A stretch of DNA of 33,078 nucleotides from a virus. Position numbers and translations under genes: made by a program. The notes under the pieces were generated by a model. The model was not told the origin of the DNA, searched no databases, and saw only the letters and a program-made list of their open reading frames with translations. Positions 20,750 through 23,380 of the stretch are shown one piece after another (position 1 is the first letter of the stretch; the number at the start of each line of letters is the position of its first letter). The stretch covers positions 1-33,078 of IMG/VR virus record IMGVR_UViG_3300042090_002088; one strand, 5' to 3'.

Positions 20750-23380
20750 TCACGTCCCCGGGTACAGCGGTATCTGCTGGCCTCCCGGGTAGATCTTCTG
20801 GCCCTCGATCTCACGAATGCGCTCCTCGCCGCGCGTCAGCAGGCCGATGTCGCGGAGGTGACGAAGCCCGGCGCTCACGCAGTCCACGTACTCGTCGTGC
20901 TTGCCGCGCGGGAACTGCCCGACCTGCGTGATCACCGCCTCGGCCCACGGCCGGTCTGGCGCGTACACCATGCCCTCCGCGAAGAGATGCTGGACACTGT
21001 AGAGACGCGACGTCTTGTCCTGACTCTTCGGGTCGGCCAACTGTACAGCGAAGAGTTCGTCGGCGTACAGCCGCCTGATCTCCTGCGCCACGCTGATTCC
21101 AGACGCTTTGTTCTCGATACGCAAGCGGTCGAGCTTGAAATCCTTGGCCGTCTTGGCGACCTTGGTGACCAGATCATGCAGTTCCAGCCTCTCTGTCCAC
21201 GCGTACATCAGCATGACCTTCGGCGAGCCGTCGGCCTCCACGCGGCTCGCGAACACGGGGCGCCCCGTGGCGTCGAGGATGCGCGTCGCCTGATTGACGC
21301 TGTCGCCGGTGAACACGCCGAGCACGATCATGCCGCTCGGGTCGTTCATCGTGTCCTCGGTGTACGCGGTGTCCACGATGCCCAAGACGAAGTCGACCAT
21401 GGGGAACTGCGGTTCCGTCCAGTTGATCCACCACTGGCGCTTGATGATGCCGCCGCCCGCGGGCTCGGGGCGCTGCTGGAGCTGGCCGGCGGCGCCGAAG
21501 GGGCCGAGCGCGTTCTCCAGCGCCTTCACGCTGGCCTCGTCGAAGCGCTCGGGCCACAGCAGCTCGCCCTCTTCGGTGCGCGGATCCTGCCAGCCGATCG
21601 TCGTCACGAAGCTGCGGTTCTTCTCCAAGCGCATGGGCAGGCAGAGATGCGTCCACTCGCCCTTGTTCTTTTCGAGGATGTGCCCGCTGAGGTCGTCTTC
21701 GGCGAGGCGCTGCTGGATGATGATGTAGATGCCGGCCTTCGGATTGCTGAGGCGCGTCGAAATCGTCGTGTCCCACCACTCGATGGTCGTCGCGATCGTC
21801 GCCTCGCTGAACGCTTCGTTGGCCGCGTTGGGGTCGTCGATGACTATGCAGTTGTGGGCAAGAATTCCGTCAGCAAAGAAGTTGCTGCAGCCTGCCACTT
21901 GGATGTCATAGACGCTGACCGCAGACACGCCATCGCACTCAACTGAGGCGACAGCGTCAAGCGACCATGATGGTGCAGTTTGTGACAACGCATGCACAAC
22001 GTGATCAGGTTCTCCGGCCGATTGTCGCGCGTGTTCTCGTTGATGTGGTGCGCCTGCAGGGCTGAACGCTTGCCGCCATAGCGATGCTTCGTTACCCAGC
22101 CCGGCGAAGCGCATGCCACGCACTGGCTCTTGTCGCGCTCCAGTACCAGCGCCCGCATACGACAAAACTGGGCCGAATAGCGGCCCAAAGTTTTGAATTT
22201 CGGGTTGCGCGATCCGCGCATATGCTTGGAGTGCGCGTCGCCCGCGCACGCCGAGCTGCAGTAAACCGTCCAGCCATGAAAGGATTTTGCGCACTCCGGG
22301 CACGTACGTGTCTTGCGGCGCGCGGCGCGCGCGCTGGCCTTGCAGGCCGGCGAACAATACCGCGAGTGGCGCGCCGTCTTCGGCGTTCCGCAAACCTCGC
22401 AGGGTTTCGCATTCTTGACGGCGTGATGCCGCGAGCAACACGTCTTCGAACAATACGCGTCCCGGCTGCCTTGCTTCAGAGCCTTGCGGGCCTCGTAGAG
22501 GCGCTTGGCAATCGGCTTGCCACACCGATCGCATGTCAGATGCAGTACCAGCCCCGAGCCGATCTTCGACAACGAGCGCGTCGCCCCTCCCCAAGCGATC
22601 AGCACGGACATATCCGCGCCCCGGCGAGAAGATCGGATGGTCTCCAGTACAGACGAAGGAATGTCCCGAAAGCGAACGCACGCGGTAGGTTTCACGCGAC
22701 ACCATGCGGCGGCCAGCGACTACCGAAGATATTACCACCTTACCCAGTCCGTGATCAAACCCGTAGACAGCGTCTCCGGGCAGTAGATCCTCGATTGGCC
22801 GCTGGCCGCACGGTGTGCTGACGAGCGTGCCGGCGGCAAAGCAGTTGCCGCCCTCGCCGGTGCCCGTGCCGCCGATCGACGTGATGAGGCGCTCGCCGTG
22901 CTTGTCGTTGCCGAAGCGCCGCTTGGTGTTCTGGTCGCTATTCAGTTGGAACCTGTGACCCCAGCGCGCTTGGTACCACGGCGACTCGATGAGCCGCCGG
23001 CACTTCACGCTGTCCCTGAGGCTCAGCGACTCCGCGTAGCTCGCGTGGAGGAACGGCGTGCCCGGCCCGCACGTCGGCGACCAGCGCTCCTCGGGCTGCG
23101 CCCACGTCCACGCTGGCAAGGCGACGCCGGCGATCGACGACTTCCCCATGCGCGGCGGCAGGTTGATGATGAGCCGCTTGATCTCGCCGTCGATCGCGGC
23201 CTCAAGGTGCTCGGCGATGACCTCGATGGGCCAGCCGTCACACCACTCGCTGGGATCGATGTAGCGCCACGCCGACCTCAGGAAGACGTAGAGGCTGTCC
23301 TCGCAGTCGGCGGCGTCGAGTGCGAGGAGCTGCGCGTCGACATCGATGCGGCGACCGCCAACGGTGACGACGCGCGCCAC
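20750..23380 (-). CDS. Terminase large subunit interrupted by an intein
   Basis: The DNA-packaging motor ATPase and headful or cos nuclease. From GTG 23380 the frame encodes 876 residues; about 545 remain after splicing out the 331-residue intein (residues 180-510). The start sits two bases after the previous stop; earlier in-frame codons overlap that gene. N-extein: LIINLPPRMGKS (Walker A variant, residues about 70-81) and RRFGNDKHGERLITSIGGTG. C-extein: CIVIDDPNAANEAF (Walker B) follows the splice point directly, then IYIIIQQRLAEDDLSGH. The nuclease domain has IVDTAYTED, IENKASGISVAQE and KHDEYVDCVSAG with the expected acidic residues. Gene order TerS to TerL to portal is standard. Without splicing the ATPase would be split before its catalytic motif, so phage growth should depend on splicing. 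Confidence 0.93.
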   Translation of the reverse strand: MARVVTVGGRRIDVDAQLLALDAADCEDSLYVFLRSAWRYIDPSEWCDGWPIEVIAEHLEAAIDGEIKRLIINLPPRMGKSSIAGVALPAWTWAQPEERWSPTCGPGTPFLHASYAESLSLRDSVKCRRLIESPWYQARWGHRFQLNSDQNTKRRFGNDKHGERLITSIGGTGTGEGGNCFAAGTLVSTPCGQRPIEDLLPGDAVYGFDHGLGKVVISSVVAGRRMVSRETYRVRSLSGHSFVCTGDHPIFSPGRGYVRADRLGRGDALVVEDRLGAGTASDMRSVWQADCQAPLRGPQGSEARQPGRVLFEDVLLAASRRQECETLRGLRNAEDGAPLAVLFAGLQGQRARRAPQDTYVPGVRKILSWLDGLLQLGVRGRRALQAYARIAQPEIQNFGPLFGPVLSYAGAGTGARQEPVRGMRFAGLGNEASLWRQAFSPAGAPHQREHARQSAGEPDHVVHALSQTAPSWSLDAVASVECDGVSAVSVYDIQVAGCSNFFADGILAHNCIVIDDPNAANEAFSEATIATTIEWWDTTISTRLSNPKAGIYIIIQQRLAEDDLSGHILEKNKGEWTHLCLPMRLEKNRSFVTTIGWQDPRTEEGELLWPERFDEASVKALENALGPFGAAGQLQQRPEPAGGGIIKRQWWINWTEPQFPMVDFVLGIVDTAYTEDTMNDPSGMIVLGVFTGDSVNQATRILDATGRPVFASRVEADGSPKVMLMYAWTERLELHDLVTKVAKTAKDFKLDRLRIENKASGISVAQEIRRLYADELFAVQLADPKSQDKTSRLYSVQHLFAEGMVYAPDRPWAEAVITQVGQFPRGKHDEYVDCVSAGLRHLRDIGLLTRGEERIREIEGQKIYPGGQQIPLYPGT
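21844..22611 (-). CDS. HNH endonuclease nested in the TerL intein in the +1 frame
   Basis: The frame is shifted by one base relative to TerL and stays open from at least 22695 to the TAG at 21846-21844. Protein features (about 255 residues from ATG 22611): a CDRCGKPI / YCSKTC knuckle, a CEVCGTPK / YCSPAC knuckle, a CPECAKSF / YCSSAC knuckle, then a classical HNH core with C-V-A-C, LQAHHINENTRDNRPENLITL and C-M-R-C-H. The domain spans about 22533-21964, exactly the gap between the two Hint halves. The last 39 codons overlap the C-terminal Hint coding sequence and look non-specific. The start is uncertain: ATG 22611 lacks a ribosome site, while a TTG at 22572 follows GGGGAGGGG at 22592-22584. 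The function would be cleavage of intein-less terminase genes (homing). That the conserved motifs survive in this frame shows it is or recently was translated. Confidence 0.85.
   Translation of the reverse strand: MSVLIAWGGATRSLSKIGSGLVLHLTCDRCGKPIAKRLYEARKALKQGSRDAYCSKTCCSRHHAVKNAKPCEVCGTPKTARHSRYCSPACKASARAARRKTRTCPECAKSFHGWTVYCSSACAGDAHSKHMRGSRNPKFKTLGRYSAQFCRMRALVLERDKSQCVACASPGWVTKHRYGGKRSALQAHHINENTRDNRPENLITLCMRCHKLHHHGRLTLSPQLSAMACLRSASMTSKWQAAATSLLTEFLPTTA
21851..22843 (-). other. Intein (Hint splicing domain) inside TerL
   Basis: A 331-codon in-frame insertion. It begins with Cys1 in block A (CFAAGTLVSTPCGQRPIEDL), has block B with the T-x-x-H motif (FVCTGDHPIFSPGRGYVRA, T66 and H69), and ends with block F/G (VYDIQVAGCSNFF, then ILAHN). 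The next residue is an extein Cys (+1). All residues needed for standard splicing (Cys1, the block-B Thr/His, the penultimate His, the terminal Asn, Cys+1) are present. The two Hint parts occupy about 22843-22559 and 21964-21851. The 198 codons between them read in this frame as an unrecognisable Arg/Ala/Gly/Leu-rich linker, because those bases encode an HNH nuclease in another frame. The insertion point, directly before Walker B of the ATPase, is a typical conserved-site choice for inteins. Confidence 0.92.

Follow-up and report, generated by a model that had tools for sequence, protein, structure and literature searches.

An intein in a phage terminase gene with a zinc-finger HNH nuclease encoded in its +1 frame

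The gene for the large terminase subunit (TerL) in a 33,078-nucleotide stretch of viral DNA (IMG/VR record IMGVR_UViG_3300042090_002088; hereafter the window) carries at its Walker-B site an intein that is very probably a mobile class 1 element made up of two overlapping genes, a self-splicing intein and a separately translated homing endonuclease. The evidence comprises the two overlapping frames themselves, conservation of the +1 arrangement among relatives, avoidance of stop codons in the intein frame, selection on the nuclease frame, the predicted folds of both products, sporadic presence at the insertion site and the occurrence of mini-intein derivatives. We propose that frame 0 would yield TerL together with a Hint domain that splices itself out, the long intein linker being filler that need only stay stop-free, and that frame +1 would yield a zinc-finger HNH homing endonuclease as a second protein, translated most likely from GTG 22695 within the Hint-N coding region. 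This nuclease would cut intein-free TerL alleles, and their repair would copy the intein in.

The TerL gene and its intein

Unless stated otherwise, features of the TerL locus described here lie on the minus strand. A single frame from 23650 to 20750 (966 aa) is open throughout TerL, the intein and the remaining TerL, and matches TIGR01630 (phage terminase large subunit), Terminase_6C and Intein_splicing; the real TerL start is probably a GTG near 23380. The intein (331 aa, 21851 to 22843) opens with Cys1 (TGC 22843-22841) and its last Asn ends at 21851. It has the motifs of a class 1 intein (Cys/Ser1, block B TxxH, penultimate His-Asn and Cys/Ser/Thr+1) in the conserved residues C1, T66, H69 and H330-N331 and in the adjoining Cys+1 of the C-extein (21848 to 21850), a position held by Ile (or Val) in empty alleles. 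Pfam searches of the intein frame returned Hint_2 (6e-9) and Intein_splicing (7.7e-9), and the TIGR models for intein N- and C-termini match the TerL frame, bearing out the sequence-only reading that TerL is interrupted by an intein with these motifs. The halves of split inteins and fractured genes lie on separate ORFs, and here one open frame runs from TerL-N to TerL-C.

The AlphaFold2 model of the intein frame is confident for the N-terminal Hint half (residues 1-95, 22559 to 22843; pLDDT mostly >90) and the C-terminal Hint half (residues 290-331, 21851 to 21976; pLDDT about 86-95), with residues 96-287 below 50. The linker between the halves (residues 96-289, 21977 to 22558) is open and predicted to be disordered (pLDDT<50), and evolves according to the nuclease frame. 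Foldseek matched this model to intein structures (E down to 5e-7), so the predicted structure has the Hint fold of a class 1 intein, and the TerL intein would be expected to splice itself out.

The nested nuclease gene and its start

In the +1 frame, the stretch from the first start codon, GTG 22695, to a TAG at 21844-21846 is open and gives a zinc-finger HNH nuclease gene (21844 to 22695; 283 aa plus stop) that overlaps the two Hint halves and reaches 7 bases into the C-extein. Pfam matches to this frame are HNH (2.2e-4), HNH_3 (1.3e-4) and HNH_2 (3e-4). The first CxxC lies at 22533, and three zinc pairs are followed by a zinc-HNH catalytic region (R187 to H242, 21970 to 22137). The invariant residues C192, C195, H216, H217, N225, N229, C234, C237, H238 and H242 provide the HNH catalytic motif and zinc ligands of an HNH homing endonuclease. 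In a bifunctional intein the endonuclease is part of the intein polypeptide, but here the HNH lies in +1. The +1 product from GTG 22695 was modelled by AlphaFold2 with a mean pLDDT of 88.6, including a well-modelled N-terminus where it overlaps the Hint domain, though both frames drive conservation in the overlaps and may thereby inflate model confidence there. The best Foldseek matches of the nuclease model are weak ones to McrA HNH domains (E 0.009). An HNH with three zinc knuckles in the +1 frame between the Hint parts of a stop-free intein frame, as first described from the sequence, is thus confirmed by frames and Pfam, and the accompanying proposal that the nuclease is decoupled from the splicing product is supported.

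Where the nuclease begins is indicated by the pattern of divergence along the intein. In 14 families of the window's clade, intein wobble positions before base ~145 mostly differ by 0.56-0.73, apart from a single dip at bases 96-119; by about base 168 the divergence has fallen to 0.14-0.31, and it does not recover before the intein ends. Wobble constraint past base ~150 implies that the +1 frame is read from there through Hint-N, the linker and Hint-C. A start codon occurs at intein base 148 in 15 of 18 clade members, a GTG in the window (22693 to 22695) and mostly an ATG elsewhere, often preceded by AGGA or similar; 500 synonymous shuffles gave 10.0+-1.6 and at most 14, although the conserved column could partly mirror conserved nuclease or intein residues. 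The sequence-only reading had placed initiation at TTG 22572 or ATG 22611; its intein, +1 HNH, decoupling and dual constraint all stand, but these two starts do not, since the dual constraint begins about 80-120 bases earlier and the conserved start is at base 148.

No clear Shine-Dalgarno (SD) sequence was found before the window's own GTG 22695, which makes this start probable rather than proven. Start codons with SD-like sequence were overrepresented between 186 and 126 bases ahead of the first zinc pair (23 versus 14.0+-2.8 in 64 families), a modest signal seen in one of six windows tested, and a test near the first zinc pair gave nothing above synonymous shuffles. A scan for sigma-70 promoters found no site, so an internal promoter is speculative. 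Separate translation of the nuclease would then proceed by internal initiation.

Survey of relatives

A second contig, 99.5% identical over 8.9 kb and differing elsewhere, carries an identical 993-base intein, and homologues at 32-65% nuclease identity share the +1 offset. Among them, two loci at 56-58% nuclease identity (L003 and L004), the annotated TerL of Gordonia phage Clown (gp5) and the AT-richer TerL of Synechococcus phage S-EIVl (43% GC) each leave the intein frame open and encode the nuclease in +1, and the IMG/VR homologues are likewise all +1. Sequencing error, including the paired errors considered at the outset, is excluded by the identical second contig together with the divergent homologues of the same offset. 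The other early suggestion, a lone decayed copy of an element whose homologues keep the nuclease in frame, fails because the matches listed include no in-frame relative and dozens in +1.

All loci fetched by nuclease, intein and phage queries were scanned with HMMs of Hint-N, Hint-C and the nuclease; among the matches listed there were 93 inteins, which grouped at 80% nucleotide identity into 81 clusters. Of these clusters, 74 had the HNH in +1 and one in +2, six gave no match to the nuclease model, and none had the HNH in frame. Such queries might enrich for nested inteins, and a second search was therefore keyed only on the final 30 residues of the intein together with 10 of the extein. Among the matches listed for this search, 46 of 49 full-length inteins had the nuclease in +1, two in +2, one (L381) was broken by a frameshift and none was in frame; there were also seven shortened inteins (117-190 aa) with +1 nuclease remnants and eight short inteins without HNH (two at other sites or doubtful). 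The survey took the best 80 loci per search and covers relatives of the window's intein family rather than all phage inteins, and as the families share ancestry the counts are not independent origins. As judged from sequence, an out-of-frame nuclease is standard in this large, unrecognised family of phage inteins, and is neither an error nor a product of decay. The shortened inteins (L023, L043, L042, L176, L337, L357 and L371) keep their nuclease remnants in the +1 phase and show decay toward mini-inteins through deletions that preserve the host frame. In the broken copy (L381:1551-3972) the Hint-N frame runs into the nuclease frame and then a stop, as in a frameshift-broken intein or a split one.

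Selection on both frames

In the +1 phase each intein-frame stop is made of a nuclease wobble T followed by AA, AG or GA; a silent T-to-C change removes any such stop, so the overlap is evolvable. When the window's nuclease was shuffled synonymously, a mean of 7.4 stops fell in the intein frame and none of 300 shuffles was stop-free, so the openness of the intein frame is beyond chance. Over 70 families no intein-frame stop was observed against about 650 expected from synonymous shuffles. At T/C wobble positions preceding AA, AG or GA, T was used in 0 of 1644 cases in nested copies versus 0.547 of 1046 in free-standing HNH relatives; at other T/C wobble positions the fractions were 0.525 and 0.579, respectively. 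The intein phase was stop-free in 89 of 89 nested copies versus 1 of 65 controls. Within the window alone, C occupies all 25 stop-risky T/C wobble positions (T 0/25), compared with C at 61 and T at 50 of the 111 safe ones (Fisher p 3.6e-6). This synonymous test upholds the dual-frame constraint expected from the first inspection.

In divergent pairs the linker differs by nuclease codon position as 0.25/0.20/0.46, as for a translated nuclease, and the Hint and extein parts diverge by the host frame. Position 1 of linker intein codons, the nuclease wobble, differs by 0.5-0.7, like unconstrained wobble at the intein start, and the intein-frame linker seems free except for stop avoidance. The earlier statement that every nuclease base must keep the terminase frame open therefore holds for stops, but the linker amino acids are otherwise unconstrained. 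Plus-strand ORFs are also present (22084-22821 and 22505-22786), but a nested gene on that strand was set aside because the two minus-strand frames explain the substitution pattern.

Mobility at the TerL site

Within the window's TerL family, 69 loci are empty at the insertion site (TGEGG[SN]/IIVVDDP, the slash marking the point of insertion) and six are occupied, with Cys replacing Ile at +1; homing endonucleases are typically encoded by mobile elements whose sites also occur unoccupied. Between two occupied loci (L029 and L037) wobble differences number 20 in 105 nuclease codons and 192 in 495 TerL codons (p 8e-5), so that the intein is less diverged than its hosts, as would be expected had it been transferred after the hosts diverged. 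No co-conversion gradient was seen around the site in this pair. The mini-inteins and partial remnants are consistent with the usual homing cycle, in which the nested nuclease would cleave the TerL site and drive homing.

Other nested inteins

The layout recurs with other nucleases, hosts and sites. DUF559 nucleases lie in +1 of helicase inteins in Vibrio phage 1.194.O (L008:2763-3542) and at L223:4287-5207, and a +1 ORF without a Pfam match, Vsr-like by eye only, lies in the intein of a radical-SAM protein (L226:4230-5081). The host proteins of these DUF559-type inteins (L008, L223 and L226) are of helicase, SNF2-type and radical-SAM kinds. HNH_3 nucleases occupy the +2 frame of inteins at other sites (L071:3180-3734; L196/L369, at L196:6253-6903; L360:1398-2288), a zinc HNH lies in +1 at another TerL site (L047), and one TerL (L196) holds two nested inteins, one +1 and one +2. 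All of these keep the intein frame stop-free. Given such different nucleases, hosts and sites with open intein frames, nesting arose more than once; most TerL Walker-B copies probably share one origin. Public annotation gives the host gene only and leaves the nested nuclease unannotated in NC_055867 (gp5; L006), KJ410740 (L007) and MG592563 (L008); the phages whose nuclease annotation has missed are Clown, S-EIVl and Vibrio 1.194.O.

In the uvsW region of STP4-a (L229:1814-4540) and PM2 (L230:1814-4546), a helicase is split by intein halves on separate ORFs, and an endonuclease-sized gene lies between the halves and overlaps both. It is possible that this layout is an end stage or a relative of the nested one.

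A candidate operator upstream of the nuclease

The dip in wobble divergence at intein bases 96-119 corresponds to a nucleotide-conserved element, ACTGGGTAAGGTGGTAATATCTTCGGT in the window (22722 to 22748) and ACGGGGTAAGGTGGTAATATCT in relatives, that lies 27-53 bases upstream of the proposed nuclease start and resembles the empty TerL homing site (ACGGGTGAAGGTGG...ATCATC) yet in a different codon phase. A homing-site matrix was built from 49 distinct empty sites and used to scan the whole intein on both strands. Its best match fell at exactly base 95 in 12 of 14 clade members, and against synonymous shuffles this match had p 0.003 each for the window, L163 and L013; column-permuted matrices gave 12 shared positions once in 1000 and never reached the mean score. 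The same element occurs at L163:4096-4118, where it matches a plausible site at 22 of about 23 bases, and at L013:690-712. In other clades a search for a copy of the homing site using each intein's own flanks gave no consistent position, limiting the operator idea to the window's clade. The element is also SD-like, making it a candidate operator or a candidate long-range SD sequence. T4 intron endonucleases bind operators resembling their own homing sites and so repress themselves (PMC2988022). Self-repression of the window's nuclease through this element is a tentative idea, to which we give slightly less than even weight.

Alternative explanations

Ribosomes translating the TerL-Hint frame might instead undergo a programmed +1 frameshift and so make a Hint-N/nuclease fusion. 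This would account for the +1 offset in nearly all TerL Walker-B copies among the matches listed, and the Hint-N coding region does contain an SD-like AAGGTGG. We consider it unlikely: +1 stops shortly before base 148 in many clade members would confine the shift to about bases 124-150, where no conserved slippery site is apparent by eye in the clade alignment, wobble constraint and the conserved start codon coincide at base 148, and other nested inteins are in +2. That the nuclease frame is an unexpressed relic, open by chance or through the intein frame, is very improbable. The seven shortened inteins with mere remnants and the broken L381 fit a relic, but divergent pairs change less at nuclease codon positions 1 and 2 than at position 3, the zinc and HNH residues are invariant, the overlaps are under synonymous constraint and the intein alone needs no second open frame.

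The nuclease might instead act in trans, for example as a packaging-assisting HNH or in phage competition, with homing secondary. HNH proteins do assist terminases in some phages (PMC11855218) and a location in TerL would suit such a role, yet the same +1/+2 layout is found with other nuclease types in helicase and radical-SAM genes, most TerL alleles of the family are without the intein, its distribution is sporadic and mini-inteins arise, which together make this reading distinctly unlikely. Indels of assembly or sequencing that shifted an in-frame nuclease out of frame are refuted by the identical second contig, by dozens of homologues with the same offset and by zero stops over about 200 codons. 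The preferred explanation remains a self-splicing intein overlapping a separately translated homing endonuclease.

Relation to known systems and implications

By the usual description an intein is a bifunctional polypeptide that supplies its nuclease and its splicing domain in equal numbers. Dassa and colleagues are said to have described, in 2009, fractured genes and split inteins whose halves are separated by a free-standing endonuclease gene. As in those, the endonuclease proposed here would be translated separately and lies exactly between the splicing halves; unlike those, the window's host ORF and intein are contiguous and the nuclease is overprinted in +1. In the openly accessible literature that was searched, we found no account of an out-of-frame endonuclease in a true intein, which is not proof of novelty. 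The closest published case is the ShiLan domain (Arsenault, Gosselin, Gogarten 2025, PMC11855218): its insertions in phage methylases hide an out-of-frame HNH, and the authors detected no splicing motifs of inteins and took no position on whether the HNH is translated. Shared features are a zinc-finger HNH in another frame of an open insertion, an open host frame, a disjunct distribution and a proposed internal start. The ShiLan GTG lies 18 bases in and in the other phase (+2), without splicing motifs (PMC11855218), whereas the window has a bona fide, full Hint domain, phase +1, many families, quantified stop avoidance and a mapped overlap.

In-frame LAGLIDADG/HNH inteins, such as those of mycobacteriophage TerL, likewise combine Hint and nuclease at the TerL ATPase site and share the homing life cycle (PMC5050341), but in the window the nuclease would be made outside the intein polypeptide. 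The T4 group I intron endonucleases I-TevI/II/III also have their own genes overlapping essential splicing sequence, with a homing-site-like operator upstream (PMC2988022); the window's operator is a sequence match only, and T4 has an RNA intron and a GIY-YIG nuclease (I-TevI, I-TevII) where the window has a protein intein and an HNH. Beyond the window, these elements may form a class of two-gene inteins that evolved repeatedly with different nucleases (zinc HNH, HNH_3, DUF559) and phases, the window's clade being self-controlled through a hidden copy of its homing site, a wider picture that we offer tentatively and at somewhat under even chances.

Named isolates make the two-gene arrangement testable now, and the +1 overlap is a clean natural test of overlapping-gene evolution. 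The nested layout hints at a link from contiguous inteins to split ones whose halves flank a nuclease gene. With the homing enzyme encoded by its own gene overprinted on the intein, its dose and timing would be separable from those of the essential packaging protein.
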